Of a stretch of DNA of 64,000 nt, positions 10,645 to 63,393 are shown one piece after another; the first letter of the stretch is position 1, and each line of letters starts with the position of its first letter. The DNA comes from Streptosporangium sp. NBC_01495 (GTDB lineage: Bacteria > Actinomycetota > Actinomycetes > Streptosporangiales > Streptosporangiaceae). The stretch is from assembly GCF_036250735.1 (NCBI RefSeq), contig NZ_CP109430.1:3348001-3412000 (forward strand), written 5' to 3'. Position numbers and translations under genes: made by a program. A model generated the notes under the pieces. The model saw only the letters and a program-made list of their open reading frames with translations, was not told where the DNA came from and searched no databases.

Positions 10645-11618
10645 TTGGAACCCCCGATACGGCGGGTGAAGGAGTAGTTGATGAGCGTCCCGACGAGGAT
10701 CAGCGCGAACAGCAGCCACGCCGCGGCCGCGGCGTAGCCGAAGTCGAAGTCGCGGAACGCCTCCTTGACGATGAACATCGCCACGGTCTGGTACTGGCCG
10801 GTCGCGCCGCCGCTCATCGTCGGGTTGCCGTCGAACATGACCGGCTCGGTGAACAGCGTCAGGCCGCCGATGGTGGAGATGAACACCGTGAAGATGATCG
10901 TCGGGCGGAGCATCGGGATGGTGATCTGCCAGAACTGCCGCCTGGGCGAGGCACCGTCGATGGCGGCGGCCTCGTAGAGGTCCTTGGGGATGGTCTGCAT
11001 CGCGGCGAGCAGGATGATCGCGTTGTAGCCGGTCCAGCGCCAGTCGATCATCGTGGAGATCGCGATCCACGAGGACCACTTCTCGTTCTGCCAGTTGATC
11101 GCGTCGACCCCGAAGAAGCTCAGGAACCAGTTGATCATGCCGTAGTCGCGCCCGTACAGCTGGGTGAAGACCACCGCGACGGCGACGACGGAGGTGATCA
11201 GCGGCAGCAGCACGCCGAGGCGGAAGAAGAGCCGTCCCCGGATGCGCTTGTTGAGCGCGTTGGCCAGCAGGAGGGCGAGGACGAGCTGCGGGATCGTCGA
11301 CATGACGAACATGCCGAGGGTGTTGACCACCGCGTTCCAGAAGGCCTCATCGGTGATCAGCTCGATGTAGTTGTCGAGGCCGACGAGGGTCTTGTCCCCG
11401 GCGAGCTCCCACTCGTGCAGCGAGACCCAGAGGGTGTAGCCGAGCGGGAAGACACCGAAGATCGCGAAAAGCAGGAAGTACGGGGAGATGAGGAAGTAGG
11501 GGGTCGCCCGGAGGTCGAACCGGGCCCACCCACTGCCCCGCTCCGGTCCGCGGCGCCCCGCCGGCCGGCGGGGGCCGGGCCGAGGTGGGGCGGCCGGGGA
11601 GTCGACGTGCAGTGTCAT
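10641..11618 (-). CDS. cebF: ABC transporter permease, CebF-like (MalF family)
   Basis: This is a 325-residue permease. A proline/arginine-rich N-terminal tail precedes the first membrane helix (PYFLISPYFLLFAIFGVFPL). The EAA loop is KDLYEAAAIDGASPRRQFWQ near residue 225. The ATG at 11616-11618 begins MTLHVDSPAAPPRP. It lies 83 nt after the binding-protein gene and pairs with the MalG-family permease downstream to form the channel of the importer. Confidence 0.9.
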   Translation of the reverse strand: MTLHVDSPAAPPRPGPRRPAGRRGPERGSGWARFDLRATPYFLISPYFLLFAIFGVFPLGYTLWVSLHEWELAGDKTLVGLDNYIELITDEAFWNAVVNTLGMFVMSTIPQLVLALLLANALNKRIRGRLFFRLGVLLPLITSVVAVAVVFTQLYGRDYGMINWFLSFFGVDAINWQNEKWSSWIAISTMIDWRWTGYNAIILLAAMQTIPKDLYEAAAIDGASPRRQFWQITIPMLRPTIIFTVFISTIGGLTLFTEPVMFDGNPTMSGGATGQYQTVAMFIVKEAFRDFDFGYAAAAAWLLFALILVGTLINYSFTRRIGGSK

Positions 11619-11701
11619 CGGTCTGAGCCTTTCAGCGGGGGCAGGCGACCGGCCCGGCCGCGGGATCGCCGCAGCCGGGCCGATGCGGGTCGGTACGGGG
11701 A

Positions 11702-13051: not shown

Positions 13052-13155
13052 TCCGGACCCCTCTCAGGTGGTCGCCCGAATCATTGGGAGGCGACATCGC
13101 GGACCGGTCCCCGACAAACGCGGTCCTCGCGACGAGGTCGTTCCTCAATGTGCTT

Positions 13156-13169
13156 TGGGAGCGCTCCCA
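13156..13169. promoter_or_regulatory. CebR operator 1 (TGGGAGCGCTCCCA)
   Basis: A perfect 14-bp palindrome, identical to the CebR binding site established in Streptomyces, is located 105 bp upstream of the cebE start. CebR binding here would repress the cebEFG-bglC-cebR operon until cellobiose or cellotriose releases it. Confidence 0.92.
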
Positions 13170-13286
13170 CGAAGAGTGGACGATGGGCAACCAGGACGTC
13201 AATATGCCGAAACTCAACCGTTACATCCGGCTGTTTTAGGTGGGACTATCAGCATGAAGTGGGGATATACCACCCATACGGGTTAT

Positions 13287-13300
13287 TGGGAGCGCTCCCA
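13287..13300. promoter_or_regulatory. CebR operator 2 (TGGGAGCGCTCCCA)
   Basis: A second identical 14-bp palindrome lies 131 bp from operator 1. The centre-to-centre distance of 131 bp would permit looping between two repressor dimers. It is also 3' of the convergent CHAP gene terminator, so no other gene is an obvious target. Confidence 0.9.
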
Positions 13301-13383
13301 TCTCATGGACATACAGTCGGGGCATTTCGTGTCCGTGTGGGGGCTCGCGGGGAGAGTGGAGGCGGCGGGGGACGGAACGCCGT

Positions 13384-13415
13384 CAGGGGCACCGCTCGTT
13401 CGAGCGGTGCCCCTG
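13384..13415 (-). terminator. Strong hairpin terminator after the CHAP gene
   Basis: A perfect 15-bp inverted repeat (13384-13398 and 13401-13415) with a 2-nt centre lies about 80 bp beyond the CHAP gene stop. It is GC-rich with no U-tract, as is usual for actinomycete terminators. Confidence 0.75.
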
Positions 13416-13493
13416 GGAGCGTGCGGACCGGCCCGCGTTCACCGGCGGGGGAGCCGGGTGCCCGCGCCGTGGGGGGCGCGGGGCGGGTGCGGG

Positions 13494-14189
13494 TCAGTTG
13501 GAGTAGACCGGGTAGCCGTAGCCGACGACCTGGGAGACGGGCCTGACGCGCTGCTCGACGTCGCCGTTGCCGGTGTTGCCCTCGATCGTGGTGATCGTGC
13601 CGTCCCCGTTGTCCTTCTTCACGAAGCCGACGTGGTCGATGCCGTCGATGCTCTTGCCGCCGGCCCAGTCGAAGTAGACGACCGCGCCAGGGGTGGGGAT
13701 GGTGCCCCAGTGTCCGTTGTTCTTGAACCACTTGGCGTGGGCGACGGTGTAGGCGTCCCAGCCCATCGTGGGGCGGATGCCGGCCATCTCGCCGACCCAG
13801 GAGACGAACATCGCGCACCAGGGGGCGTTGGCGTAGTCGTACACGGTGTTGCCGCCGTCGCGGGCGAGGGTCTCCTTGGCGCGAGGGGTCGACATGTACC
13901 AGGAGTGGAACTTGGTCCCGCCGCCCTGGGCGTTCTCGCGGACGCCGATCTGCTTCGAGGCGAGGTCCAGGACCTGCGCGGCGGAGACCTTGGGGAGCCT
14001 CTCGGCCGCGATCTGGAGCGGGGTCTTCGCGGACTTGGAACTCTGGGCCTTGGCGTCGACGGGCGGTGCGTTCACGACGCCGTGACCGTCGGCCAGAGCT
14101 ACGCCGGTGGTGCCGGTCGCCAGGACGGCACACGCGCCCAGGACGGCGCACACCGCACGGGGGGTGGAGATGAGGCGATGCTTAGTCAT
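13494..14189 (-). CDS. Secreted CHAP-domain cell-wall hydrolase
   Basis: This is a 231-residue exported protein with a signal peptide (AVCAVLGACAVLATGTTGVALA). A short linker precedes a CHAP (NlpC/P60-like) domain from about residue 75. The catalytic cysteine is in NAPWCAMFVSW, a histidine is in GIDHVGFVKK, and TIEGNTGNG is the third active-site element. It probably cleaves peptidoglycan cross-bridges or stem peptides. AAGGAG precedes the ATG. The roughly 150-nt leader contains a ydaO/c-di-AMP riboswitch signature, so expression is probably tied to c-di-AMP as for other actinobacterial wall hydrolases. Confidence 0.87.
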   Translation of the reverse strand: MTKHRLISTPRAVCAVLGACAVLATGTTGVALADGHGVVNAPPVDAKAQSSKSAKTPLQIAAERLPKVSAAQVLDLASKQIGVRENAQGGGTKFHSWYMSTPRAKETLARDGGNTVYDYANAPWCAMFVSWVGEMAGIRPTMGWDAYTVAHAKWFKNNGHWGTIPTPGAVVYFDWAGGKSIDGIDHVGFVKKDNGDGTITTIEGNTGNGDVEQRVRPVSQVVGYGYPVYSN

Positions 14190-14217
14190 ACGGGGGTTCG
14201 ACTCCTTGCTTCGCTTC

Positions 14218-14345
14218 CATTCCGCCTACCGGGTTAGCTGACGGGTTCGGGCTGGGAAGTGCCCTACGACGCACGAGTGCGTTGATTCACCCCAGGAACG
14301 TGGTTCCCCGGTTCCGCAAACCTCGCGGATTCGGCGGCCGTGCTC
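14218..14345 (-). ncRNA. ydaO-yuaA type cyclic di-AMP riboswitch
   Basis: In the leader of the CHAP gene, the minus strand carries the conserved elements of this class in order: GGGGAACC then GGGGTGAATC, a variable hairpin, CCCGAACCCGTCAGCTAACC and GGTAGGCGG. These blocks are diagnostic for the class, which is an OFF switch for cell-wall hydrolases in actinobacteria. The 5' boundary is approximate. The switch ends about 30 nt before the CHAP start codon. Confidence 0.88.
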
Positions 14346-14727
14346 ACCGATGGCGGAGGGTTCCGCCGGGTGGAGCGCGGTCGGGCAATGTGACGGCAAT
14401 GCGCAGACCTGGATAGACCTAGACAATTGCCATGAACAGGACGAACGTACGCCAACAGGACAGACGATTACAAGTAGGACACATTGCCCTGACTTGGCGG
14501 TACGTCCGAAATAAGGCGGTACGGCGAGGTGTTACCCGGCGCGGGACAGGGAGTGGATCATGCTCGTCCGGTGCCGGACGCGCCTTCCCTCTGCGGGCGG
14601 GACGGTGTCCGGAATCCCCTGCGTCCACGGCGATCCAGGCTTTCCGGACCCGCCTGCGAGGCGTCGGGTGGGGGGTGCTATCGCGCGAGGAGGGAGCCCC
14701 CGATCGACGGTGATGCGCCCGACATAT

Positions 14728-14747
14728 TATCGAACAAGTATTCGATA
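14728..14747. promoter_or_regulatory. Perfect AT-rich inverted repeat of unknown role
   Basis: TATCGAA and TTCGATA are separated by 6 bp in an unusually AT-rich island (about 14722-14762). The form resembles a TetR/PadR-type operator, but no gene start lies close by on either strand. Confidence 0.4.
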
Positions 14748-14880
14748 GTAAAAAGTATACGGATGGTAGGGGTTCTCCCATGGAAGAGCTGGGGGCCACA
14801 CCCTGGGATCCGGCGGCTCGTGGCCGCGTCCTGAGGGGTTTTCGCAGCTCAGGAGGGTGAGATGGAGTCGTCGGCGGGTC

Positions 14881-15053
14881 TCGCCGCCCGAAGGGTAAAG
14901 GAATGCGCCCCCGAAAGGGCTCGACGCCCGCGAAGGTAAAAGCGCAAGGTAAAGGAACACGCTTTCCGGGAGGCCTCGCCGCCCGCGAACGGTAAAGGCG
15001 CGCGGGGCGAGGGAACGCGTCTCCGAAAGGGGTTCGCCGCCCGCCGGGAGCGA
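14881..15053. repeat. Degenerate tandem repeats, about four units
   Basis: Four diverged units of about 40-58 bp each begin with a CTCGCCGCCCG-like block (near 14880, 14920, 14975 and 15033). Most contain GGTAAAGG and a later CCGAAAGGGG- or CCGGGAGG-like block. No coding pattern is consistent across the units. Confidence 0.5.
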
Positions 15054-15060
15054 GGAAACG

Positions 15061-15131
15061 TGCCTCCGCGCTCTCGTGCCTCCGCGCTCTTGTGCCTTCG
15101 TGCCTTCGTGCCTTCGTGCCTTCGTGCCTTC
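15061..15131. repeat. Short tandem repeats (two 15-16 bp units, then five 8-bp units)
   Basis: Two TGCCTCCGCGCTCTYG units (15061-15090) are followed by five perfect copies of GTGCCTTC (15092-15131). It is a simple-sequence array with no gene assigned. Confidence 0.85.
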
Positions 15132-15193
15132 GCGCCGGAGCGGGCGCCGGGCGCTCCGGGTTTCAAGTCCTCGAGCTCACGGCCCCGTGTCCG

Positions 15194-15228
15194 CAGGTCT
15201 CAGGTCTCAGATCTCAGATCTCAGATCT
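15194..15228 (-). repeat. 7-bp tandem array containing the tetR stop codon
   Basis: Five 7-bp units read CAGGTCT (twice) and CAGATCT (three times) on the plus strand. The TetR stop (TCA at 15221-15223) is inside the array, and each downstream unit repeats the TGA triplet. Confidence 0.88.
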
Positions 15229-15799
15229 CCGAGCCGGACCACGCGCGGAACAGTGGGAGCAGGAACCGGTCGACCGTCTCCTCGACGAACTCCCGGTCCA
15301 GCGGCTTTCCGGTGAAGAACAGCCGGTACCACACCAGCGCCTCGGTGACCTTCCTGAGCTCCGCCGGGTCCACCGGTCCCGGCAGCTCGCCGCGCTCCCT
15401 GGCGCGGTCGAGCAGCGGGGTGGTGCCCGTGATGTCGGCGCGGGGCACGTTGTCGCGCAGGGCGGCGGCCAGGTCGGGGGAGGTGAGGAGCGCGGGGAAC
15501 AGGCCGAAGATCATCGCGTGTTTCCGCTCCAGGATCCGGCAGAACCCGTCCACGACCTCGATCAGGTCCCCGCGCATCGATCCGGTGTCGGGCGGCGGCG
15601 CGACCTCGATTTCGAGGTGGTTGCAGATCAGGTCCACGACCAGCGCCTCCTTGCCCGGCCAGCGACGGTAGATCGTGGCCTTGCTGGCGCTGGCCCGCCT
15701 GGCGATCTGGTCGACGGACATCCGGTCGTATCCGACCTCGGACAGCAGCTCCAGAGTCGCGTCGAGGATCGCCCGTTCCCGCGCGGGATCGAGACGCAA
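15221..15799 (-). CDS. TetR family transcriptional regulator
   Basis: This is a 192-residue repressor with the helix-turn-helix RERAILDATLELLSEVGYDR followed by SKATIYRRWPGKEALVVDLI. The C-terminal part matches the TetR_C_16/AcrR-like class (RGDLIEVVDGFCRILERKH). It is read from a TTG at 15797-15799 preceded by GGAGG 4 nt upstream. It lies 15 nt after the SDR gene on the same strand, so it is probably co-transcribed and autoregulated through the palindrome at 16746-16772. Confidence 0.85.
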   Translation of the reverse strand: MRLDPARERAILDATLELLSEVGYDRMSVDQIARRASASKATIYRRWPGKEALVVDLICNHLEIEVAPPPDTGSMRGDLIEVVDGFCRILERKHAMIFGLFPALLTSPDLAAALRDNVPRADITGTTPLLDRARERGELPGPVDPAELRKVTEALVWYRLFFTGKPLDREFVEETVDRFLLPLFRAWSGSEI

Positions 15800-15814
15800 G
15801 GTGCCTCCGGTGGT

Positions 15815-16696
15815 TCACGAGTCCTGTCTGATCTCCCAGAATCGTACGCCGGTCAGCTCCTCCGACCTCTCCCAGAGCCTCGCGGCCACGGCCGCGTCCA
15901 GCGCCTTCGGTGAGGGACGCAGCGGTTTCGGCCCCGGCCCGACGTACTGCCCGCCCCTCGCCTCGGGAGAGGTCGCCGCGTACAGGGACGGCAGGGCGCC
16001 CTTGGCGGGCGGCTGCAACAGCAGGCGCAGCAGGGCGTTGACGGGGCGGGTGAGGGCGCCCGCCTTCATGATGCCGGTGGCCGTCATGCCCGGGTGGGTC
16101 GCCAGGCTCAGCAGGGCCGCTCCGGAGGCGTCGGCACGGCGCTGCAGCTCCAGGGCGAACAGCAGGTTGGCCAGCTTGGAACGGCCGTAGGCGGAGAACC
16201 TGCCGTACCGGCGGTCGAGGGCCAGGTCGTCGAAGTCGATCGCGCCGACGGAGTGGGCGTCGCTGGAGACCGTGACCACCCGGGCGGCGGGGGCGGCCAG
16301 CAGGCGCGGCATGAGCAGCCCGGTCAGGGCGAAGTGCCCCAGATGGTTGACGCCGAACTGGGTCTCGAAACCGTCGACGGTGGTCCGCCGGGGCATCGGG
16401 CCCACTCCGGCGTTGTTGACCAGCAGGTCGAGCGGCCCGTCGACCGTCTCGGCGAACGCGCGCACCGAGCGGAGGTCGGCCAGGTCGAGCGCCCTCACTT
16501 CGACCGCCGCCTCCGGCGCCGCCGTCCGGACCGTGTCGAGCGCGGCCCGGCCCCGGTCCGCGTCGCGCGCGGTCAGGACGACGCGGGCGCCGTGCCTGGC
16601 CAGTTCGAGTGCCGTCGGCACGCCGATGCCGCCGCTCGCCCCGGTGACCACCGCGACGGAGCCGGTCAGGTCGGGAATCTTGTCGGGTGTCCACAT
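15815..16696 (-). CDS. SDR family oxidoreductase (retinol-dehydrogenase-like)
   Basis: This is a 293-residue extended-classical SDR. It has the cofactor loop TGASGGIG, LVNNAGVGPM, a TVSSDAHSV serine region and YGRSKLANLL as the catalytic YxxxK. The ATG at 16694-16696 is preferred because AGGAG lies 6 nt upstream. It is first in a two-gene unit with the TetR gene, and an operator-like palindrome lies about 50 bp upstream of the start. The probable role is NAD(P)-dependent oxidation or reduction of an unknown small molecule controlled by the TetR protein. Confidence 0.85.
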   Translation of the reverse strand: MWTPDKIPDLTGSVAVVTGASGGIGVPTALELARHGARVVLTARDADRGRAALDTVRTAAPEAAVEVRALDLADLRSVRAFAETVDGPLDLLVNNAGVGPMPRRTTVDGFETQFGVNHLGHFALTGLLMPRLLAAPAARVVTVSSDAHSVGAIDFDDLALDRRYGRFSAYGRSKLANLLFALELQRRADASGAALLSLATHPGMTATGIMKAGALTRPVNALLRLLLQPPAKGALPSLYAATSPEARGGQYVGPGPKPLRPSPKALDAAVAARLWERSEELTGVRFWEIRQDS

Positions 16697-16745
16697 CGCT
16701 CGCTCCTCGTGGCGGATCGACGGACGAATCGGGGGATGGATCATG

Positions 16746-16772
16746 TGGTGTACGAAACGGTTCCGTACACCA
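16746..16772. promoter_or_regulatory. TetR-type operator upstream of the SDR-TetR unit
   Basis: The arms TGGTGTACG (16746-16754) and CGTACACCA (16764-16772) flank AAACGGTTC. The GTACG-AAACGGTTC-CGTAC core is typical of operators for TetR regulators of this type. It sits upstream of the SDR ATG in the expected promoter position. Confidence 0.75.
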
Positions 16773-16860
16773 CGGTAAAGGTCGATAAGATCATCGGCAA
16801 GCGCGCGTGGTCGGCTGTTCACCCGCAGTTCCCGGGCGCTTAAGGCCACCGGGTTAGGTT

Positions 16861-17910
16861 GTGGCAGTCGTGAACGGGTCATCGCCCGGCGTGGAGGACG
16901 GTCGAGACCACGCGCGGGAGCAGGGTTCGGCCATTGCCTGGGTGGAATCCCCGTTGCAGATGCTCTGTGCGGTGGAGGCCCACCATGCCGGGCTGCTCGG
17001 TGCCCGCAGCCACCTCGTGCCCCGGGCGAAGCTGCGCCCGCTGGCCGTGACGGGCCGAGAGCTCGGCCGTCTCACCCTGCCGAGGGGGCTGGAGCTCACC
17101 GCGGCCGCGCCGGACATGCCCCGGCCGCGCCGGGGCGAGATCTGGGCGGTGGGCGACGCCTTCTCCGGCAAGGTCCAGTTCCGCTGGCTCACCGCGCTCC
17201 CCGGCCGGATCGTGATCGTCGACGACGGGCTCGCCACCATCAGGCTCCTGGAGCTGCTCACCGGCAGGGTGGGAACGCCCCTGCTGAGGGCGAGGGGGAA
17301 GGCGGGAAGGCTCAGGACCGTCCTCGCCACGGCGGCCGGGCTCAGGCTGCGCGCCGCCGCCCGCTCGGGGCGGCTGTCGATCTTCACCGCGCTGCCCGTG
17401 CCCCCCGACCTGGCGAAGGCCGTACGCGCCAGGGGAGCCGAGCTGGTCACCCACGACTTCGCCTGGCTGCGGTCCCAGCCGCTGCGCAGGCCCCGTCCCG
17501 AGGAGCGCACCGTCGTCCTCGGCACCTCGCTGGTCCGCAACGGCCTGATCCACCGCGACCGCTACTTCACCTGGCTGGCCGGGCTCGGCTCCGCCGAGCC
17601 GGTGGCCTACTTCCCGCACCGCCGCGAGGACCCCGGCGACCTCGCCCGGGTCGGGGAGCAGCCGGGGATCACCGTCTACGACGGCGGGATCCCCGCCGAG
17701 ATGACCCTGCGCGGCCTGGCCGCCGAGCAGCGGGTGCTGAGCCTGCCGTCCACCGCGGTCACCTCCCTGCGGGTCCTGCTCTCGGCCCGGGGCGTCGCCG
17801 TGGAGACGGTGGACGTCCCCGACGAGTGGTGGACGGCCGAGGCGGCGCCGTCACTCCGCTCCCACCTGTCGAGGTTCGCCCATCACGACACGGGGGTCAC
17901 CGGGCCATGA
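16861..17910 (+). CDS. Putative sialyl/nonulosonyl-transferase-like protein of the wall-polymer locus
   Basis: This is a 349-residue protein with no signal peptide. The N-terminal AIAWVESPLQMLCAVEAHHA resembles the SPLQL start typical of GT52/polysialyltransferase-like enzymes. A second Rossmann half includes EERTVVLGTSLVRNGLI and VAYFPHRREDP, where the HR(R)E region is where such enzymes hold catalytic and CMP-binding residues. LPSTAVTSLRVLL resembles the donor-binding SS/T motif. It is the first gene of a locus with CMP-nonulosonate synthesis genes. GTG at 16861 or 16870 could be the start and neither has a clear ribosome binding site. The transferase role is inferred from similarity and context. 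Confidence 0.6.
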   Translation: MAVVNGSSPGVEDGRDHAREQGSAIAWVESPLQMLCAVEAHHAGLLGARSHLVPRAKLRPLAVTGRELGRLTLPRGLELTAAAPDMPRPRRGEIWAVGDAFSGKVQFRWLTALPGRIVIVDDGLATIRLLELLTGRVGTPLLRARGKAGRLRTVLATAAGLRLRAAARSGRLSIFTALPVPPDLAKAVRARGAELVTHDFAWLRSQPLRRPRPEERTVVLGTSLVRNGLIHRDRYFTWLAGLGSAEPVAYFPHRREDPGDLARVGEQPGITVYDGGIPAEMTLRGLAAEQRVLSLPSTAVTSLRVLLSARGVAVETVDVPDEWWTAEAAPSLRSHLSRFAHHDTGVTGP

Positions 17911-18025
17911 CCCCTCGGCCGGGGCCCGGCGGGCTCGCCGCTCGCGGGACGCGCGCCGTGCCGCCTCTCCACAAACGAATCCTCTCCACACACGAAACCG
18001 GGGGATTCCCCGTCGGAGGTTCTCT

Positions 18026-53413: not shown

Positions 53414-53861
53414 TCGCGCCCGCCCGCTGACATTTCGCAACGGTCCGTTTCTGCCACCGTCACGGGCTTCCCCGGCATGGTCGCCGATCTCTATACTCCG
53501 AGATCCTCACACCGCGAGGACCGCCGCAGCCGCCGGTCCTCCGGAACACCGCGAGGACCGTAGCCGCCGGTCCTCCCGGGCATTGCGAAGGCCGCCAGAG
53601 CCGCCGGTCCTCTCGAACATCGCGAAGGCCGCCAGAGCCGCCGGTTCTTCCGCTCGGCACGTGTTTGATCCGGGCCCCCGCGGTCCGGGACCTCACTCTC
53701 GTTCGATTCGCCGATCTCGCGCGCCCGCCCCAGGAGGCCGGTTTGAGTGTGCACGATACCGCCCAGATCGCTATGACCGCCGACCCGTCCCGGCCCGTCT
53801 TCCCGATCCGCGACCGAGTGGGCACGCCCTCGTGTCGCGGAGTCGAGCCGGAGGGGACACC
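53414..53861. other. Intergenic region ahead of the biosynthetic cluster
   Basis: This 448-bp stretch between malR and the monooxygenase gene holds a hairpin-rich tandem array (53511-53655) and about 200 bp of presumed promoter region for the cluster. No gene is supported. No clear -35/-10 pair is visible. Confidence 0.6.
53511..53655. repeat. Four 34-37 bp tandem units, each able to form a hairpin
   Basis: The units start at 53511, 53548, 53582 and 53619 with the form ACCGCGAGGACCG...AGCCGCCGGTCCTC. Within each, GAGGACCG or GAAGGCCG pairs wholly or partly with CGGTCCTC, so the array is a row of stem-loops upstream of the biosynthetic cluster. Units 3 and 4 are the most alike. Confidence 0.8.
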
Positions 53862-55346
53862 GTGAAGGACGTCTCCGGCTTACCCGGCTCATCCGACTTA
53901 TCCAGTTCGCCAGGCTTATCCGGCTCACCTCGCCTACCCGGCTCAACCGGCGACCCGAGCCGCCACGAGACCCACGCCGTCACCGCCACCCCCGCCGACC
54001 GGACCGCACGGGCCGCGGTCGTCGGGGCGGGCCCGGCGGGATCGCTGCTCGCCATCCTCCTCGCCCGCCGCGGCCACCCGGTCGACGTCTACGACATGCG
54101 TCCCGACCCGCGCGACGGCAAGGGCGACGGCGAGGGACGCTCGATCAACCTGGGCCTGTCGGCCCGCGGCATCCGCGCCCTGCGGCACGTCGGCCTCTGG
54201 AACGCTCTCGGGGACAGGCTCGTGCCCATGCGGGGACGCATGATCCACCGTCCGGGCAGGCCGGCGGCCTTCCAGGCGTACGGCACCGACCCCGGGGAGA
54301 TCCTCCACTCGGTCCGCAGGGACGAGCTGACCACCCTCCTCGTCGAGCGCGCCGCGGAACACGAGGGGGTCAGGCACCTCTTCGGCGTCCGCTGTACGGG
54401 AGTCGACCGCGAGAGCGGAGACCTGACCCTGGCCGACGCGATCACCGGGGAGACGCGCGACGCCCGCGCGGACTTCGTGGTCGGCGCCGACGGGGCGTTC
54501 TCCGCCGTACGCGCCGCCATGCAGCGCGGGCTCGCCGCCGACTACCGCCAGGAGTTCCTCGAATGGGGGTACAAGGAGCTCACGATCCCCGCGGCCCCCG
54601 GCGGCGGCTCCCGCGTCCCGCTGGAGGCGCTGCACGTCTGGCCCGGAGAGAAAGCCCTGATCGTCGCCCACCCCAACGTGGACGGCTCGCTGACCGCGAC
54701 GCTCTTCCTGCCGCACTCCGGCGCCCCCGGCTTCGCCGAACTCGAAGGGGAGCGGGACGTCACCCACTTCTTCCTGCGGGTCTTCCCCGGCATGGTCGAC
54801 CTCGTGCCCGACCTGGCCGCGCAGTACGCCGCCAACCCGGTCGGAAACCTGGTGACCATCCGCACCTCACGCTGGCGGCACGCCGACCGGGTGGTCCTGG
54901 CGGGCGACGCCGCCCACGCGGTCTACCCGTTCTACGGCCAGGGCATGAACTCGGCCCTGGAGGACTGCCTGGTGCTCGACGGCTGCCTCGCCCGGCACCC
55001 CGGCGACCGCGCGGCCGCGTTCGACGAGTATCAACGGCTGCGCAGACCGCACACCGACATCCTGGCCGACCTGTCCGAACAGAACTTCGCCGACCTGCGC
55101 GACGGCACCCGGTCACCGCTGCGGCTGGCCCGCAGGCAGGCCGACCTCGCGCTGAACCGCGCCTTCCCCACCCTGTGGCGACCGCTCTACACCATGGTCT
55201 CGCACACCGACATGCCATACGGCGAGGCGTTGCGCCGCGCCCACCGGCAGGACCGCGTGCTGCGCTGGTCGGGCGCGGCGCTGGCCGCGGGAGCCGCCCT
55301 GGCGGCCGTACGGATCACCTCTTCCCCGCGGAGGACGTCCCCGTGA
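53862..55346 (+). CDS. Kynurenine 3-monooxygenase-like FAD hydroxylase
   Basis: This is a 494-residue flavoprotein. The GTG at 53862 has GGAGG 7 nt upstream. Residues 1-45 are a low-complexity repeat (LPGSS, LSGSP, LPGST) containing three TTA codons. The FAD motif is AAVVGAGPAGSLLAILLARR (near 48). Features specific to kynurenine 3-monooxygenase are INLGLSARGIRALRHVGLW, EWGYKELTIPAAPGG, EALHVWPGEKALIVAHPNVD and GDAAHAVYPFYGQGMNSALE (near 345). The C-terminus has a hydrophobic helix (SGAALAAGAALAAV) like the membrane anchor of eukaryotic enzymes. It is expected to convert kynurenine to 3-hydroxykynurenine. It is the first gene of an overlapping operon with an NRPS. Confidence 0.87.
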   Translation: MKDVSGLPGSSDLSSSPGLSGSPRLPGSTGDPSRHETHAVTATPADRTARAAVVGAGPAGSLLAILLARRGHPVDVYDMRPDPRDGKGDGEGRSINLGLSARGIRALRHVGLWNALGDRLVPMRGRMIHRPGRPAAFQAYGTDPGEILHSVRRDELTTLLVERAAEHEGVRHLFGVRCTGVDRESGDLTLADAITGETRDARADFVVGADGAFSAVRAAMQRGLAADYRQEFLEWGYKELTIPAAPGGGSRVPLEALHVWPGEKALIVAHPNVDGSLTATLFLPHSGAPGFAELEGERDVTHFFLRVFPGMVDLVPDLAAQYAANPVGNLVTIRTSRWRHADRVVLAGDAAHAVYPFYGQGMNSALEDCLVLDGCLARHPGDRAAAFDEYQRLRRPHTDILADLSEQNFADLRDGTRSPLRLARRQADLALNRAFPTLWRPLYTMVSHTDMPYGEALRRAHRQDRVLRWSGAALAAGAALAAVRITSSPRRTSP

Positions 55347-56017
55347 TCGCGCACCCCGGCGACCCGTCGCTCCGCCTGATCGAGGTCGCGGACCTCGACG
55401 CCCCGTCACCGCCGCCCGAGGTCCTCGCCCACGGGGACGCGCTGCGGGCCGTCGTGGACTGGGCCGAGACCTACCTGTGCCGCCCCCACCCCGACCTCGG
55501 CCGCAACGGCCCGGTCTGCCCGTACGCCCAGGGCTCGCTGAGCAGGGGCAGGTTCTACCTCGCGGTGCCCGAGGCGGGCCACCGCGCCGCCGAGACCGTC
55601 GAGGACGTCGTCGCCGCGGTGGAGCCCTACCGGGCCTGGTTCACCGCGCTCGCGCCGCTGGACGGCCCCGAGGCCGTGTTCACCACCATCCTGCTGCTCC
55701 TTCCCGGCCTCGGCGACCGCCTGGCGCTCGTCGACGGCGCGCAGGACGCGCTGAAGAACGCCTTCGTCGAGGAGGGCCTGATGATCGGGGAGTTCCACGA
55801 CGGGCCGCCCGACAAGCCGGGGCTGTGGAACCCGCTGCTGCGTCCCCTGGCCGGTCCCGTGCCGCTGCTCGCGATCCGCCACATGGTCGCCACGGACCTC
55901 CCCTTCCTGTGGGGGGACCCGGCCCACCGCCGCGCGTACCTGACCCGGTTCGACGGCCGGGTGCCCGCCCACCTGCGGGAGATCGTCATGGAGACCATCA
56001 TGGAAGGGGCCGAGTGA
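55343..56017 (+). CDS. Unknown 224-residue protein of the biosynthetic cluster (DUF6875-like)
   Basis: The GTG overlaps the monooxygenase stop by 4 bp and has GGAGG 8 nt upstream. The protein is soluble, with GPVCPYAQGSLSRGRFYLAV near residue 55, FTTILLLLPGLGDR near 118, and a striking block, GLMIGEFHDGPPDKPGLWNP, then PVPLLAIRHMVATDLPFLWG near 180-200. I believe this corresponds to the family catalogued as DUF6875, which lacks an assigned function. The single cysteine and two histidines could be catalytic or heme/metal related. Its placement between a kynurenine hydroxylase and an NRPS, with overlapping frames, argues for a direct role in the same pathway. Confidence 0.7.
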   Translation: MIAHPGDPSLRLIEVADLDAPSPPPEVLAHGDALRAVVDWAETYLCRPHPDLGRNGPVCPYAQGSLSRGRFYLAVPEAGHRAAETVEDVVAAVEPYRAWFTALAPLDGPEAVFTTILLLLPGLGDRLALVDGAQDALKNAFVEEGLMIGEFHDGPPDKPGLWNPLLRPLAGPVPLLAIRHMVATDLPFLWGDPAHRRAYLTRFDGRVPAHLREIVMETIMEGAE

Positions 56018-59000
56018 TGCCGATCGCGCGCCGTGACCCAGCGGCGCCCATCCCGCTCACCCCGGCCCAGGCACGCCTGTGGTTCCTCGACCGGGCCGGG
56101 CCCGGCGGGGCGTCCTACGTCTGCTGGACCTTCCAGCGCCTCACCGGGCCGCTCGACACCGACGCGCTGCGCGCGGCCTTCACCGCCGTCGTGGGCCGCC
56201 ACGAGGCGCTGCGCCTGGTCATCGTCGAGGGACCCGCCCAGGTGGTACGGGAGAGCGGGCCCGAACTGCGGGTGGTGGACGCGCCCGACGAGGAGCGGGC
56301 GCGCGACATCGTCAGGGACGTGCTCTCGCGCAGATTCACCCTCGACGGCGCCCCGCTGCACCGGGCCGTGCTGGTCAGGCTCGCGGCCGACGAGCACATC
56401 CTGAGCTGGTGCCTGCACCACATCATGTGCGACGCACCCTCGCTCGGGATCCTGGAGGAGGACCTCTGGGCCCACTACCGGGTCCTGGTCGAAGGAGAGG
56501 AGCCGCCGGGGCCGGTGTCCGCCCAGTTCCCCGACTACGCCGCCTGGCTCGCCGGGCAGGACGAGGCGGGGCGCGAGGCGGGACTGGCCCACTGGCGAGA
56601 GCACCTGTCCGGCGCGCCCGCCGTCACCACCCTCCCGCAGGACCGGGCCCGGCCTCGCGAACCCGTACTGGGCGGGGCCCGCCGGTCCCTGCGCCTGCCC
56701 GCCGACCTGACGGCGGACCTGTACGCCCTCGTCAGGGCGCGGCGCGTCACCCCGTTCGTCATCGTGATGTCGGCGATGACCGCCACCCTGGCCAGGTGCT
56801 CCGACGAGGAGGACGTGGTCGTCGGGACCGCCCTGGTCAACCGGCACCTGATCGAGCTGGAGGGTTCGGTCGGCTGCTACATCAACCTCATCCCGGTACG
56901 GACGGACCTGCGGGCCGACCCCACCCTGGCCGAGCTCCTGCGTGCCGTGCGCGGCTCGGTCATCAGGGGGCTCGGCCACCAGGCGACGCCGTTCGAGGAG
57001 ATCGCCGACCTGGCCGGGGCACCCCGGGACCTGCGCAGGAATCCCGTCTTCCAGACACTGCTCGTCATGGGGGAGGGGGGCGGGTCCGCCGAGCGGGCGG
57101 CGAACATCACCGTGGAGACATGGGAACTCGACGAGTCCTCCCCCGGCGCCCGGTTCGACCTCACCCTCGTCGTGAGCGCGGGCGAGAGAGGGATCGAGCT
57201 GCACGCCGACTACTCCGCCGACCTCTACGACGAGGACACCGTCGACCGGTTCCTGCGCCACGTCGTCGTCTTCCTGTCCGCCTTCACCGCCACGCCGGAT
57301 CTGCGGGTCTGGGAGATCCCGCTCCACGACGAGGCCCGCCACCCCGCCACCCCGGACGCCTCGTACGGCGGCTTCTCGCGGGGTGAGCGGTCTTTGGACG
57401 GGGGCACGTCCGACGGCGGCCTCTCAGGGGGTGAGCGGTCCCCGGGCGGCACGTCCGACGGCGGTCCGGAGCCCCGCGATCCCCGGTCCGCCGGGGACTT
57501 CACGGCGGTCCACGATCTCATCGCCCGGTGGGCGGCCGAGGCCCCCACCGCTCCCGCGCTGGTCTCGGAGGCGGGGACGATCGGCTACGGCGAGCTGGAA
57601 CGCCGCTCGGCGCGGCTGGCGGCGCGGCTGCGGGAGGCGGGGGCGGGGCGCGAATCCGTCGTCGCCGTCGTCCTGCCGAACGGCGGGGACGCCGTCGTCG
57701 CCCTGCTCGCCGCGCTGAAGGCGGGTGCCGCCTACCTGCCGCTCAACCCGGCCGACCCGCCGGACAGGATCGCCGGGATCCTCCTGGAGGCCGGAGCGGT
57801 CGCCGCCGTCACCTCCGACGGGCACCGGGACGCGCTCGCGGGCTACCTCGGCGCTGTTCTCACCGTCGGGGCCTCAGGGGATGTCGGCGATGCCGAGGGA
57901 GCCGAAGGTTTCGAGGACGGTGAGGGGGTCAAGGACGGCGGGGTCGGCGGTGAGCACGGAGCCATGCGGGGCTCCGGGCGTCCCGCGGGTGACCCCGGTG
58001 ACGCCGGTAGCCCGGATGACACGGGTGACCTCGGTGAGGTGCCGTCCGTGGGACCGGAGGACCTCGCGTACGTGATCTACACGTCGGGGTCCACGGGACG
58101 GCCCAAGGGGGTGATGGTGACCCACGGGACCCTCGCCCGGCTGACCGAGGCGTTCCGCGTCGTCCACGGGTTCGGGCCCGGCGGGCGGGTGCTGATGCTG
58201 CCGCCGCTGACCTTCGACGCCTCGGTGGGGGACGTGTTCCCGGCCCTGTGCTCGGGGGCCGCCGTCGTACTGCACCCTGACCCCGTCCTGCTGGACGGGC
58301 CGGAGCTGGTGCGCTTCTGCGCGCGGCACGGTGTGACCGCGGTCGACACCGCGGCCTCCCTGTGGCGCGGGTGGGCGGCCGTGCTGGCGCCCGGGGCGGT
58401 GCCCGCCGACTGGCCGGTCACCACGATGATGGTCGGGGGTGAGCGGGTGCCGCTCTGGGCGGTCCGCGCCTGGGCCGCCGCCACCGGCGGCCGGGTCGAG
58501 CTGTTCAACCACTACGGCCCGACCGAGGCGACCGTGTGCGCCACGGTGCACCGCACCCGCGACGGCGCCGAGGCGGCCGGGCGGGAACACCTGCCGATCG
58601 GGCGCCCGCTGCCGCACGTCCGCGCGTACGTCCTCGACCGCAGGGGCGGCCTGGCGCCCACCGGCACGCCGGGCGAGCTCCACCTGGGCGGTGACTGCCT
58701 GGCCCGGGGTTATGTCGCCCGGCCCGAGGAGACCGCGGCGCGGTTCGTCCGCGACCCCCACGCCGGGCGCGAGGGGGCCCGCATGTACCGGACCGGGGAC
58801 CTGGCCAGATACCTGGCCGACGGGACGCTGGAGTTCCTCGGGCGGGCCGACCGGCAGCTGAAGGTCAACGGCTACCGGATCGAGCCCGCCGAGGTCGAGT
58901 CCGCCGTCGTGGCGCACCCGGGGGTGCGGGACGCGGCCGTCGTGGCCTCCCCCGAGGGAGACCGGCTCATCGGCTACGTGGCGCCGCGCACGGCCGACCC

Positions 59001-60891
59001 CGAGGAACTGCGGGGTTTCCTGCGCGAGCGGCTGCCCCGGCACATGGTGCCCGCCGTGCTCGTCCCGCTCGACGAGATCCCGCGCACGCCGCACGGGAAG
59101 ATCGACACCGGGCGGCTCCCGGCCGCCTCGCGGGACGCGCCCGGACACGTCCCGCCGCGCGGCCCGCTGGAGACGGCCCTGGCCGGGGTGTGGGCCCGGA
59201 TACTCGGCGTTCCCCGGGTGGGACGCCACGACAACTTCTTCGCCCTCGGCGGGTCCTCGCTGCTGGCCGCCAGGGTGCTCGGCGAGGTCCGCGAGGAGGC
59301 CGGGGCCGAGATCTCCCTGGGGGCCCTCTTCGAGGCGGCCGACCTGGCGGAGCTCGCGGCCTCCGCGGCCACGCCGGAACCCGCCCTCGGCGACGACGAC
59401 CTGAGGGCGCTGGCGGTGCTGCCCGGCGACGTGCGCGACGCCCTCGGCTTGACGCGCGGCGTACGGAGGGACGCGCGCGAGGTGTCCGGCGTGGCGGGGG
59501 ATGAGCGTGGCGCGTCCGGTGTGCCGGGGGACGCGCCTGGCACGTCCGGTCCCGTGTCCGGGGTGCGGGGGAACGCGCATGGCGTATCCGGATTCGCGTC
59601 CGGTGCGCGTGGCGTCCCCGGCTCGATCGGCTCCGCGCCGGGCGGGGCGGCGGCGAAGTGGCCCGGACGGGTGTTGCTGACGGGAGCGACGGGCCTTCTG
59701 GGGGCACACCTGCTGGCCGAGTTGCTCGACCGGGGCGTTCCCGAGGTGATGTGCCTGGTCAGGGCGAGGGACGAGCACGCGGCCACCGACCGGGTCCGTG
59801 AGGTCCTGACCCGGCACGGCCTCTGGAGGCCCGGCTACCGGGAAAGGGTCACCGGTCTGGCGGGGGACCTGACGGCGCCCCGGCTGGGGCTGGAGCCCGA
59901 CGTCTACGACGCCGTGGCGGAGGGGAGTGACCTGATCTGCCACGCCGGGCGGGTCGTCAACTTCGTTCAGCCGTACCGGATGCTCGGCCCCGTGAACGTC
60001 GGCGGGACCGTCGAGATGGTCCGGCTGGCCGCGCACCTGAGGCCGACCCCGCTGCACACCGTCTCCACCCTCGGCGTGTATCTCGGCTGGGCGGGCCGGG
60101 ACCGCCCGATCACCGAGGACGAGGCCCCGGACGACCCCGCCGGGCTGGGGTCCCCGTACTACCAGAGCAGGTGGGTCGCCGACGCGGCGGCGCGGCGGGC
60201 CCGCGAGCACGGCCTGCCCGTGACGGTCCACCGGCCCGCGAGGGTCGGCGGCCACAGCCTCACCGGCCGGGGCGACCCCGGAGACTACTTCAACCGGCTG
60301 CTCGCCACGTTCGTCCAGCTCCGTATGGTGCCCGACATACCGGTCACCGAGGACGTCATCCCCGTCGACCACCTCGCCGCCGCCATCGCCGCCAGGCTCC
60401 TGGACCCGAGGTCGGCGGGGCGCGACTTCCACTACTTCGACGCCGAGGGGATCACCTACCGGCAGATGGCGGCGGCCCTGCTCGATCACGGCTACGACGT
60501 CGAGCGGGTTTCCTGGGAGCGCTGGCGGGCGGAGATCCTGCGGCGCTCCGCCGAGGGCGAGCCGGTCGCCATGGGGCCGTTCGCCGCCGATCTGGGCGAG
60601 GAGCCGCCGGGGCCGCGCGGACCGAGGTTCGACTGCTCGTTCGCCTGCCCGCCGCCCGATCCCGCCCTGATCGGTCGCTATCTCGCGTTCCTCGAAACGT
60701 CCCTCGGAGCCTTTCCCGAAGCGTCTCCGGGAATACCTGCCGGGGCCTTTCCCGAGGCGTCTTCGGGGACGCCCACCGGAGCCCCCGCCGGGCCTTTCGC
60801 TGAGAAGTCCACCGGGACCTCCGGCGAGAGGCCCACCGAGCTGTTTGTCGACACTTCCAGTGAAATGTATGAAGAAGGAGGGCTTCGTTGA
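56017..60891 (+). CDS. Single-module nonribosomal peptide synthetase with terminal reductase (C-A-T-R)
   Basis: This is a 1,624-residue synthetase whose ATG overlaps the previous stop by 1 bp. The condensation domain (about 10-430) has LSWCLHHIMCDAPS as HHxxxDA instead of HHxxxDG. The adenylation domain (about 495-1030) has A3 YVIYTSGSTGRPKGV near 685, A4 FDASVGDVF, A5 FNHYGPTEATVCAT, A7 YRTGDLARY, A8 NGYRIEPAEVES and A10 TPHGKID. The carrier domain has NFFALGGSSLLAAR near 1075. The reductase (about 1215-1560) has VLLTGATGLLGAHLLAELL and SPYYQSRWVADAAARRA. My reading of the specificity residues is D-A-G-D-M-G-H-V-C-K, matching no code I know. Low-complexity inserts lie at the C-A, A, T-R and C-terminal junctions. 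The product is probably released as an aldehyde or alcohol. Confidence 0.9.
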   Translation: MPIARRDPAAPIPLTPAQARLWFLDRAGPGGASYVCWTFQRLTGPLDTDALRAAFTAVVGRHEALRLVIVEGPAQVVRESGPELRVVDAPDEERARDIVRDVLSRRFTLDGAPLHRAVLVRLAADEHILSWCLHHIMCDAPSLGILEEDLWAHYRVLVEGEEPPGPVSAQFPDYAAWLAGQDEAGREAGLAHWREHLSGAPAVTTLPQDRARPREPVLGGARRSLRLPADLTADLYALVRARRVTPFVIVMSAMTATLARCSDEEDVVVGTALVNRHLIELEGSVGCYINLIPVRTDLRADPTLAELLRAVRGSVIRGLGHQATPFEEIADLAGAPRDLRRNPVFQTLLVMGEGGGSAERAANITVETWELDESSPGARFDLTLVVSAGERGIELHADYSADLYDEDTVDRFLRHVVVFLSAFTATPDLRVWEIPLHDEARHPATPDASYGGFSRGERSLDGGTSDGGLSGGERSPGGTSDGGPEPRDPRSAGDFTAVHDLIARWAAEAPTAPALVSEAGTIGYGELERRSARLAARLREAGAGRESVVAVVLPNGGDAVVALLAALKAGAAYLPLNPADPPDRIAGILLEAGAVAAVTSDGHRDALAGYLGAVLTVGASGDVGDAEGAEGFEDGEGVKDGGVGGEHGAMRGSGRPAGDPGDAGSPDDTGDLGEVPSVGPEDLAYVIYTSGSTGRPKGVMVTHGTLARLTEAFRVVHGFGPGGRVLMLPPLTFDASVGDVFPALCSGAAVVLHPDPVLLDGPELVRFCARHGVTAVDTAASLWRGWAAVLAPGAVPADWPVTTMMVGGERVPLWAVRAWAAATGGRVELFNHYGPTEATVCATVHRTRDGAEAAGREHLPIGRPLPHVRAYVLDRRGGLAPTGTPGELHLGGDCLARGYVARPEETAARFVRDPHAGREGARMYRTGDLARYLADGTLEFLGRADRQLKVNGYRIEPAEVESAVVAHPGVRDAAVVASPEGDRLIGYVAPRTADPEELRGFLRERLPRHMVPAVLVPLDEIPRTPHGKIDTGRLPAASRDAPGHVPPRGPLETALAGVWARILGVPRVGRHDNFFALGGSSLLAARVLGEVREEAGAEISLGALFEAADLAELAASAATPEPALGDDDLRALAVLPGDVRDALGLTRGVRRDAREVSGVAGDERGASGVPGDAPGTSGPVSGVRGNAHGVSGFASGARGVPGSIGSAPGGAAAKWPGRVLLTGATGLLGAHLLAELLDRGVPEVMCLVRARDEHAATDRVREVLTRHGLWRPGYRERVTGLAGDLTAPRLGLEPDVYDAVAEGSDLICHAGRVVNFVQPYRMLGPVNVGGTVEMVRLAAHLRPTPLHTVSTLGVYLGWAGRDRPITEDEAPDDPAGLGSPYYQSRWVADAAARRAREHGLPVTVHRPARVGGHSLTGRGDPGDYFNRLLATFVQLRMVPDIPVTEDVIPVDHLAAAIAARLLDPRSAGRDFHYFDAEGITYRQMAAALLDHGYDVERVSWERWRAEILRRSAEGEPVAMGPFAADLGEEPPGPRGPRFDCSFACPPPDPALIGRYLAFLETSLGAFPEASPGIPAGAFPEASSGTPTGAPAGPFAEKSTGTSGERPTELFVDTSSEMYEEGGLR

Positions 60892-62204
60892 GAGCCGACG
60901 CGCTCAGGTTCGCCGGTATCTGGTCCGCCGAGCTGGTGTCGGTGATCGGTTCCAGCCTCACCGGCTTCGTGCTCAGCGTCTGGGTCTATCAGGAGTCCGG
61001 ATCCGAGACCCAGTTCGCTCTCACCCTGCTCTGCGCCACGCTGCCCGGCATCCTCATCACCCCCTTCTCCGGGGTGATCGTCGACCGCTTCGACAGGAAG
61101 TGGGTGCTCGTGCTGAGCGACTGCGGGGCGGCGCTGTCGACGGTCGCGCTGCTGCTGATCGTCCAGGCGCAGAGCCTGGCCGTGTGGCACGTCTACGTCG
61201 CCACCGCGGTCGGCGCGATCTGCGGGACCTTCCACCTCACCGTCTACCAGGCGATGACGCCGCTGCTGGTCCCCGAACGCCACCTGGGGCGGGCCAACGG
61301 GCTGATGCAGGCCAGCTGGGGGTTGCAGATCGCGGCCCCGGTGGTGGCGGGGACGTTGCTGGAGGTGGTGGGACTGCGCGGCGTGCTCCTGCTGGACCTC
61401 CTGTCGTTCGCCGTCGCGACGGCCGTGGTCCTGGCGACCCGGCTGCCCCGGTCGGCCACCCGGCCCGAGACCGTCGCGAGCCCGCCCTCGCTGGGCACCG
61501 ACCTGCTCTTCGGGCTGCGGTACCTGCGCACCCAAGGGCTGTTCCCCCTGGTGGCGCTCTTCGCCGCGTTCAACCTCGTGTTCGCCGTCGCGGGGGTGCT
61601 GATCCGCCCGCTCATCCTGTCGTTCACCGGGCCCGCCACGCTCGGGGTGCTGGTGTTCGCCGGAGGGGCGGGACTGTTCGCGGGAAGCCTGGTCATGGGC
61701 CTGTGGGGAGGGCCGCGCCGCAGGATCACCGGGATGAGCCTCTTCATGGGAGCGGGCGGGCTCGCCCTGGCCGCGCACAGCCTGTCTCCCTCGGTGGCGC
61801 TCATCGCGGTGGTCGCCCCCGCGTTCCTGTTCATCCTGCCGGTGGTCAACGGCTGTGTGATGACGGTCCTGCAGGTCAAGACGGAGGCCGGGGCGCTCGG
61901 CCGGGTTCTCGCCACGGCGCGCACCCTGGGACAGTGCGCGACGCCCATCGCCTTCCTGAGCGCCGCGCCCGCCGCGGAGCATCTCACCGGACCCCTGCTG
62001 ATGCCGGGCGGCGCGCTCGCCGGGAGTGTCGGGGAACTGATCGGGACGGGCCCCGGCAGGGGTATCGCCCTGATCTTCCTGATCGACGGGCTCCTGCTCG
62101 TCGCCCTCGCGGTCACGACGTTCGTCCTTCCCCGGCTCCGCCGCCTGGAGCGCGAGATCCCCGACGCGCCCAGGACGGACGCCGCACCCGCCCCGGTCTC
62201 CTGA
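60888..62204 (+). CDS. MFS transporter (Enterobactin/tetracenomycin exporter-like)
   Basis: This is a 438-residue membrane protein read from a TTG that overlaps the NRPS stop by 4 bp, with AAGGAGG 6 nt upstream. Twelve helices are predicted, including FAGIWSAELVSVIGSSLTGF, the loop VIVDRFDRKWVLVLSDCGAA (MFS motif A-like) and PVVAGTLLEVVGLRGVLLLD. The MFS_3 type with N-terminal IWxxELVSxxGS is common for natural-product or siderophore export. As part of the operon, it is likely to export the NRPS product and give self-protection. Confidence 0.88.
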   Translation: MRADALRFAGIWSAELVSVIGSSLTGFVLSVWVYQESGSETQFALTLLCATLPGILITPFSGVIVDRFDRKWVLVLSDCGAALSTVALLLIVQAQSLAVWHVYVATAVGAICGTFHLTVYQAMTPLLVPERHLGRANGLMQASWGLQIAAPVVAGTLLEVVGLRGVLLLDLLSFAVATAVVLATRLPRSATRPETVASPPSLGTDLLFGLRYLRTQGLFPLVALFAAFNLVFAVAGVLIRPLILSFTGPATLGVLVFAGGAGLFAGSLVMGLWGGPRRRITGMSLFMGAGGLALAAHSLSPSVALIAVVAPAFLFILPVVNGCVMTVLQVKTEAGALGRVLATARTLGQCATPIAFLSAAPAAEHLTGPLLMPGGALAGSVGELIGTGPGRGIALIFLIDGLLLVALAVTTFVLPRLRRLEREIPDAPRTDAAPAPVS

Positions 62205-62234
62205 CCCCTACCGACTTCACGAACGGCGACCTCC

Positions 62235-62356
62235 GCGACCCGCACCCCTTACGACCCGCACCCCTTACGACCCGCACCCTTTACGACCCGTACCCCTCAC
62301 GAATCCGCGACCCCGCGAACCGTACCCCCCCACGAACCGCGACCCTTACGAACGAG
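62235..62356 (+). repeat. Short tandem array of about 16-bp units between MFS and methyltransferase genes
   Basis: About seven to eight units of the form ACGACCCGCACCCCTT fill almost the whole gap between the two genes. They are near-perfect at 62235-62290 and decay to the right (ACGAACCGCGACCCTT). The array reaches to the ribosome binding site of the methyltransferase. Confidence 0.8.
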
Positions 62357-62361
62357 GTCCG

Positions 62362-63393
62362 ATGCCGCTGCACCTGACACCCGAGGACGCCCGCCGCTAC
62401 CTGGAGAGCGGAGAGGCGCCCGGTCCCCATCTCGACGTGATCGGCGCCATGTCGGCGCACGCCGCCGCGGCCGGGGTCCGGCTCGGCCTGTTCGAGGCCC
62501 TGGCGGACGGGCCCAGAGACCTGCCCGAGCTGGCCGCCGGGCTCGGTGCCGACCGGGACGGCCTGCGCGTCCTGCTCGGCGCGCTCGCCGCGACCGGATA
62601 CGTGACGTCCGAGCCCGGCGGGTACGCGCTGACCGCCGTGTCCCGCCCGCTGCTCGGCGGGTACGGCAACACGCTGCTGTTCTGGCAGGAGGTCCTGGCC
62701 GGGCTCTGGGGCGGGCTGGAGGAGTCGGTGCGCTCCGGCAGGCGCGGCGCGGACTTCTACACCTGGATGGCAGGGCGCCCCGAGGTGCTGGCCCGCTTCC
62801 AGCGGTTGCTCCAGGACCAGGCGGGATGGCTGGCGGAGGAGATCGCCGCCGTCGTCCCCCTGCCGGACGGCTCCTCCCGGCTGCTCGACCTGGGCGGGGG
62901 GCACGCCCGCTACAGCATCGCCTACTGCCGCGACCGCCCTGATCTGCGCGCCACCGTCGTCGACCTGCCCTCGGGGCTCGAGGCGGGCCGCTCGGCGGTG
63001 GACTCGGCGGGGATGGCCGGCCGCGTCACCCTCCTCGCCGGGGACATCCTGGGCGATCTCCCGTACCGGGACCAGGACGCCGTGCTGCTGTTCAACCTGC
63101 TGCACGGCTTCGGCGAGGAGCAGGCATCGGCCCTGCTGCGGGCGGCGGCGCGCACGCTGCGCCCCGGCGGGGTCGCGCTGGTGCTCGACCGGGATCCCGG
63201 CCATCCGGGGGACGCGGCGGCGCGGGCCTTCACCCCGCTCTTCGAGCTCAACCTGCACCACACCCAGGGCGGGCGCCTGTACTCCCCGGAGACGGTCACC
63301 CGATGGCTCGCCGAGGCCGGTTGTCATGAACCGAGGGAGTATGTCCTGACACGCTCCCCGGCCCACCTTCTGACAGTCGCCACCAGGGCGTGA
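62362..63393 (+). CDS. SAM-dependent methyltransferase (O-methyltransferase family 2-like)
   Basis: This is a 343-residue enzyme. The N-terminal dimerisation helices (AMSAHAAAAGVRLGLFEALA, YALTAVSRPLL) precede the Rossmann domain, with the SAM-binding motif RLLDLGGGHARYSIAYCRDR near residue 175, VVDLPSG as the acidic loop, GDILGDLPYRDQDAVLLFNL and LRPGGVALVLDRDPG. It has the fold of small-molecule O- or C-methyltransferases such as those acting on 3-hydroxykynurenine in pyrrolobenzodiazepine routes. The substrate is not shown by sequence. It is co-directional with the operon and separated from it by the repeat array, so its membership of the cluster is probable but not certain. Confidence 0.85.
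   Translation: MPLHLTPEDARRYLESGEAPGPHLDVIGAMSAHAAAAGVRLGLFEALADGPRDLPELAAGLGADRDGLRVLLGALAATGYVTSEPGGYALTAVSRPLLGGYGNTLLFWQEVLAGLWGGLEESVRSGRRGADFYTWMAGRPEVLARFQRLLQDQAGWLAEEIAAVVPLPDGSSRLLDLGGGHARYSIAYCRDRPDLRATVVDLPSGLEAGRSAVDSAGMAGRVTLLAGDILGDLPYRDQDAVLLFNLLHGFGEEQASALLRAAARTLRPGGVALVLDRDPGHPGDAAARAFTPLFELNLHHTQGGRLYSPETVTRWLAEAGCHEPREYVLTRSPAHLLTVATRA

Follow-up and report, generated by a model that had tools for sequence, protein, structure and literature searches.

A conserved gene set in Streptosporangium pairing a DUF6875 protein and a KMO-like flavoenzyme with a single-module reductive peptide synthetase

The 64,000-nucleotide stretch of the Streptosporangium sp. NBC_01495 genome (11.1 Mb) analyzed here, hereafter the window, carries five genes on the + strand that together span positions 53862–63393. 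In order, the open reading frame (ORF) calls encode a flavoenzyme resembling kynurenine 3-monooxygenase (KMO), a DUF6875 protein, a nonribosomal peptide synthetase (NRPS), a major facilitator superfamily (MFS) exporter, and a methyltransferase. The KMO-like FAD monooxygenase (53862–55346, 494 residues, FAD_binding_3 profile) starts at a GTG codon with GGAGGGG just before it. The 224-residue product of the second gene (55343–56017) was called unknown in the original prediction, which was made from the sequence alone; it belongs to a named family reported to be heme proteins, DUF6875 (PF21780, 208.8 bits against a cut-off of 24.5), and is the key partner in the set. The NRPS (56014–60891, 1625 residues) is the single condensation-adenylation-thiolation-reductase (C-A-T-R) module that had been predicted, with profile matches to all four domains in order: the C domain at 56050–57336 (residues 13–441, Condensation profile, HHIMCDA motif at 56416–56436), the A domain at 57523–59100 (residues 504–1029, AMP-binding profile, FDASVGDVF motif at 58213–58239, pocket DAGDMGHVC), the T or carrier domain at 59176–59361 (PP-binding profile, LGGSS motif at 59245–59259), and the R or thioester reductase domain at 59677–60552 (NAD_binding_4 and TIGR01746, the latter at 242.5 bits with a cut-off of 213.35; YYQSRW at 60157–60174). 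An R domain also ends the C-A-T-R layout of pyrrolobenzodiazepine (PBD) clusters. Further profile matches identify the MFS exporter (60888–62204, 438 residues) and an O-methyltransferase-type enzyme (62362–63393, 343 residues, Methyltransf_2 plus a dimerisation domain). The composition and order of the set are as first described, and the reported overlap of the genes holds for the first four, whose three junctions each consist of a 4-base overlap (for DUF6875/NRPS, if the NRPS starts at the GTG at 56014), but not for the methyltransferase gene, which follows the MFS gene after a gap of 157 bases containing a 16-base tandem repeat.

The five genes form a cluster type that is both real and conserved. 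The genome contains a second copy (7.579–7.590 Mb) in the order C-T, C-A-T-R, MFS, methyltransferase, KMO-like, DUF6875, and many relatives carry the set, so its occurrence is far beyond chance. From a genome scan we kept the best 80 of 233 DUF6875 loci, and the counts therefore describe the nearer relatives. A KMO-like gene adjoins DUF6875 in 42 of these 80, a lower bound since our gene caller, which outside the window relied on codon usage learned from nine of the window's genes, fails in low-GC loci. With two duplicate records and the second copy added, the pair occurs in 45 of 84 loci, every one of which also has an NRPS (45/45), and BLAST finds all five gene kinds in 31 of the 84. DUF6875 is uncommon in the class, where 13 of 296 sampled genomes encode it; of 297 sampled genomes of the family (the present one included), 31 have a KMO-like match at E 1e-120 or lower. 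Our literature search, incomplete in coverage, found no known product or description of this cluster type. A version in Streptomyces and Sinosporangium (L072–L074, L077, L080–L082) combines an A-T protein and a two-module NRPS with the KMO-like and DUF6875 genes; its last A domain has the pocket DAGDMGHVC, its layout is C-A-T-C-A-T-R where uncut, and a methyltransferase is present in six of the seven loci.

What ties the two putative oxidases to the synthetase? The terminal A domain of loci with both KMO-like and DUF6875 genes has the pocket DAGDMGHVC in 50 of 52 distinct complete loci, whereas this pocket occurs in none of 32 A domains from DUF6875 loci lacking a KMO-like gene. The pocket letters were set by motif alignment, the tenth letter, K, being added and not read. 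The first set comprised 44 loci with readable A domains after removal of the duplicates L033, L054, and L014; in L034 and L036 the terminal domain is cut by a contig end, leaving 42 complete loci (window and second copy included), 41 with DAGDMGHVC and one with DAGDLGHVC. Eighteen later stretches yielded ten distinct extra loci once seven repeats of scan genomes (L165, L167, L171, L172, L174, L177, L178) and one locus without DUF6875 (L169) were dropped; nine of the ten read DAGDMGHVC and one, L163, DAGDTGHVC. The pocket is near-invariant despite identities among the first 42 A domains of 48–98% (median 55%), and the remaining modules in these loci have varied codes, which we take to be Gly-like, Val-like, and acyl-type. 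The contrast between 50/52 and 0/32 leads us to conclude that the two oxidases form a functional unit with this A domain, and the three appear to be tied to one unusual substrate. It also gives a simple mining rule that held in all 52 readable loci: DUF6875 beside a KMO-like gene predicts a C-A-T-R synthetase with the pocket DAGDxGHVC. Because the pocket hardly varies and goes with two named oxidases, the identity of the substrate can be tested directly, and the DUF6875 family gains a defined biosynthetic partner.

We propose that DUF6875 is probably a heme-thiolate enzyme, an assignment that rests on a structural model and on analogy. A 2026 report describes the family as heme-binding and as oxidizing L-Trp ("cytochrome P422", a name that appears in a reference title of PMC13307353). 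The best fold match of the DUF6875 model, although with weak Foldseek scores (E 2e-3, TM ~0.37), is AglA, a heme-thiolate arginine hydroxylase of the YqcI-YcgG heme family (PMC12866846). Cys59 (codon from 55517) is present in all 52 rows that cover the position, and it would be the heme ligand by analogy with AglA Cys44. Unlike what we propose for DUF6875, AglA acts on the arginine guanidine. A functional parallel is zigI of the zigralone cluster of Micromonospora zingiberis, which is needed for the ring methoxy group (PMC13307353). Like the window, that cluster combines DUF6875 with a methyltransferase and has oxygen installed and methylated on a Trp-derived ring; by its published description, the basis of our comparison, it differs in having no NRPS or KMO-like enzyme and in making a terpenoid product. 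Among 30 loci with DUF6875 and no KMO-like gene, ten have a pyridoxal phosphate (PLP) decarboxylase (Pfam in three, BLAST in the others) and nine a GNAT-like protein (assigned by eye, no Pfam match). These neighbors fit a hydroxytryptamine-type pathway and thus fit, without proving, a hydroxylase role for DUF6875; the ten decarboxylase loci may encode bacterial routes to hydroxytryptamines or N-acyl hydroxytryptamines. They are L086, L091–L093, L097, L100, L102, L103, L084, and L098, eight of them also with the GNAT-like gene, and one KMO-like locus, L043, likewise has a PLP-decarboxylase BLAST match.

The best matches of the KMO-like enzyme among solved structures are KMOs, at 268 bits, with the next family at 74 bits. 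The contacts to the kynurenine carboxylate (R84, Y98, N369, and Y404 in PfKMO numbering, which is the printed chain number plus one) are conserved in 44 of 44 KMO-like enzymes, in the window enzyme as R126, Y140, N408, and Y443. The original prediction of a KMO-like enzyme is upheld to this extent, KMO being the nearest characterized family. Yet the sequences place the enzyme outside the six canonical KMOs compared. In a midpoint-rooted tree of 51 rows, from which near-copies and three remote rows were dropped, 45 KMO-like rows split from the canonical six at 100/100; a second tree, of 53 rows, again puts 100/100 on the canonical branch, which there includes two more remote rows, neither tree including PBD KMOs. 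The separation from KMOs that the original prediction had named as evidence against itself is therefore found in part. Unlike canonical KMO, moreover, the window enzyme does not sit beside kynureninase or tryptophan dioxygenase (TDO), and its ring pocket is altered: the changes L226 to His, M373 to Leu, and, nearby, F409 to His occur in 44 of 44 KMO-like enzymes and in none of the six canonical ones. The roles of positions 226 and 373 are described in PMC6376250; position 409 is not described in the accessible part of that paper. On its ring side the window enzyme has L266, V268, H270, and L412, with H448 nearby. All 17 later DUF6875-coupled rows (some repeats) keep His226, Leu373, and His409; the exceptions at other positions are Leu at 224 in L174 and His at 404 in L163, the locus that also departs in its A pocket. 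The N-terminal extension of the window enzyme, about 45 residues, is of low complexity.

Where does the partner of the loaded amino acid come from? The HHxxxD motif of the window C domain is kept, and no gene other than the NRPS, of those called in the window or in the next 13 kb, carries any C, A, T, or R domain. Because the motif is kept and no donor carrier is encoded nearby, we expect the donor in trans. Nonomuraea soli has the set directly joined to genes for C, a stand-alone A, C-T, E1alpha, E1beta, E2, and an ACP-like (acyl carrier protein-like) protein. The ACP, MbtH, GNAT, and flavin-reductase names of small genes used here were assigned by eye. The corresponding starter genes of the window's genome lie at 7.535–7.550 Mb, 4.1 Mb from the window, in a region (G000:C1:7529009-7551957; L114/L115) that encodes E1alpha, E1beta, E2, the stand-alone A, C-T, ACP-like, and C. 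This A protein, whose gene is about 39 kb from the KMO-like gene of the second copy, is 67–68% identical to the Nonomuraea proteins in one comparison and 71% in another. A starter-type A occurs in 12 of 13 relatives: 10–32 kb from the KMO-like gene in seven, only on other contigs in four, Planobispora among them, and, in Planomonospora (G215), both at a distance of about 0.5 Mb and on a different contig. The five-gene form detached from starter genes recurs in Planobispora and Planomonospora; the window set is thus one of several detached forms, and we infer that its donor is probably supplied in trans. The cluster is probably not self-sufficient, a change from the original prediction, as the starter genes that stand beside the set in several relatives sit 4.1 Mb away here. 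Of the partners which that prediction proposed to look for elsewhere in the genome, there are a TDO-family gene at 3.183 Mb and a kynureninase gene at 7.18 Mb, the latter paired with a canonical KMO, so the genome does encode kynurenine enzymes. The starter-supply sub-cluster was found near several KMO-like/DUF6875 sets, with an acyl-type code of the A domain in its relatives. The E1/E2 and ACP-like genes carried by some relatives recall the glycolyl-starter logic of quinocarcin and naphthyridinomycin.

We propose, with a probability of about 0.5, that the locus makes a Trp-derived amino aldehyde, doubly oxidized and methylated, or an acylated or peptidyl form of it. First, DUF6875 would add a hydroxyl group to the benzo ring of free L-Trp, with C7 as a possible position. 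Second, the KMO-like flavoenzyme, gripping the carboxylate of the free amino acid, would oxidize the hydroxylated ring again, and the methyltransferase would methylate one oxygen. The A domain would then load the oxidized, methylated product on the T domain, the C domain would join this building block to a donor, most simply one from the starter genes 4.1 Mb away, and the R domain would release the product reductively as an aldehyde for export by the MFS protein. Such a pathway suggests a building block unlike the ones used in PBD and saframycin biosynthesis. In saframycin-type biosynthesis a tailored aromatic amino acid, there based on tyrosine, feeds the reductive C-A-T-R synthetase SfmC. 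More tentatively, the set may represent an uncharacterized natural-product class in which DUF6875 and the KMO-like enzyme build a Trp unit, the two copies share a remote starter half, and the aldehyde may cyclize on the indole in saframycin-like fashion.

Several observations weigh against this pathway. The fold match of DUF6875 to AglA is weak, no sequence match between the two families was found, and no donor carrier protein was found in the window or in the next 13 kb. The R domain is a further concern. It retains GxxGxxG, but its YYQSRW places Arg where the YxxxK motif has the catalytic Lys. Lys occupies this position in 39 of 41 distinct R domains, with Arg only in the window and in Nonomuraea soli, and in all of ten R domains from a separate reading (some repeats); in MxaA, the closest R domain of solved structure, SKW stands at the position of the window's SRW. 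Reduction by the window R domain may accordingly be weak or altered, and the substitution lowers our confidence in the reduction, not in the identity of the domain. Finally, a locus from the same genus (L169 of G310; cluster at 9433–17965) lacks DUF6875, and its KMO-like enzyme falls within the clade of the window enzyme (branch 91/86); the KMO-like gene there lies instead beside genes for a Trp halogenase, TDO, and an alpha/beta hydrolase. This swap of TDO for DUF6875 suggests that DUF6875 might also lead to kynurenine. MbtH-like and flavin-reductase genes also lie beside the KMO-like gene of L169, and the cluster resembles a pathway of chloro-kynurenine type in which the KMO pocket has changed.

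The main rival, less probable than a doubly oxidized Trp, is a kynurenine route in which DUF6875 replaces TDO, or the TDO of the genome feeds the pathway, the KMO-like enzyme produces 3-hydroxykynurenine, the methyltransferase methylates it, and the C-A-T-R synthetase releases a kynurenine-type aldehyde that could close to a benzazepine-like ring. The standing of KMO as the nearest characterized family, the conserved carboxylate contacts, the partners of L169, and the TDO-family gene in the genome all speak for it. However, the letters that DUF6875-coupled enzymes have on the ring side (mostly L222, V224, and H226) are absent from the TDO-coupled enzyme of L169, which has M222, I224, and Q226 (and H369), and canonical KMOs differ there as well, except for V224 in one of six. 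This pocket change suggests that the product of DUF6875 is something other than a kynurenine. Two kynureninase and two TDO tblastn probes found no match in the window or the 84 loci, matching only three control loci, and zigI, the sole genetically studied DUF6875 gene we found, is needed for a ring methoxy group and not for ring opening. The earlier idea that 3-hydroxykynurenine itself is the building block survives, though not as the favored one.

It is less probable still that the window holds a decayed or half-finished duplicate, a detached copy of a larger cluster that makes little or nothing alone. The Arg in its R domain, the lack of other C, A, or T domains among the genes called nearby, and tandem repeats in spacers and a linker fit this explanation, as does the finding that none of 15 other genomes from the genus has a close ortholog, their matches being 55–62% identical. 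All five ORFs are nevertheless open and the C, A, and T motifs are present along with GxxGxxG in the R domain, while N. soli shares the R substitution with starter genes attached and the detached form recurs in two other genera. A PBD-type cluster borrowing its missing enzymes is very improbable, for although PBD clusters such as those of anthramycin and porothramycin are described as containing a KMO-family enzyme, methyltransferases, and a condensing NRPS module (PMC4194701, where TDO is also absent from the porothramycin cluster), the window differs from that description in having DUF6875 and in lacking kynureninase, TDO, and an anthranilate A-T protein, absences that tblastn and domain calls bore out as first reported for this cluster, and enzymes of this KMO-like clade, like the A pocket, also serve in clusters whose modules are quite different.

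Upstream of the five genes lies a LacI-type regulator (profile match), itself preceded by apparent sugar-transport genes (by eye). Tandem repeats occur in the spacers at 53509–53652 and 62236–62353, in the N-terminal extension of the KMO-like enzyme (53875–53951), and in the T-R linker of the NRPS (59484–59603), which also contains several Gly/Asp/Ser-rich low-complexity insertions. Another KMO-related gene, a 1058-residue ORF about 36–40% identical, belongs to a separate biosynthetic cluster (L016:9271-17489), where its neighbors by eye are P450, anthranilate-synthase-like, and DAHP-synthase-like genes.

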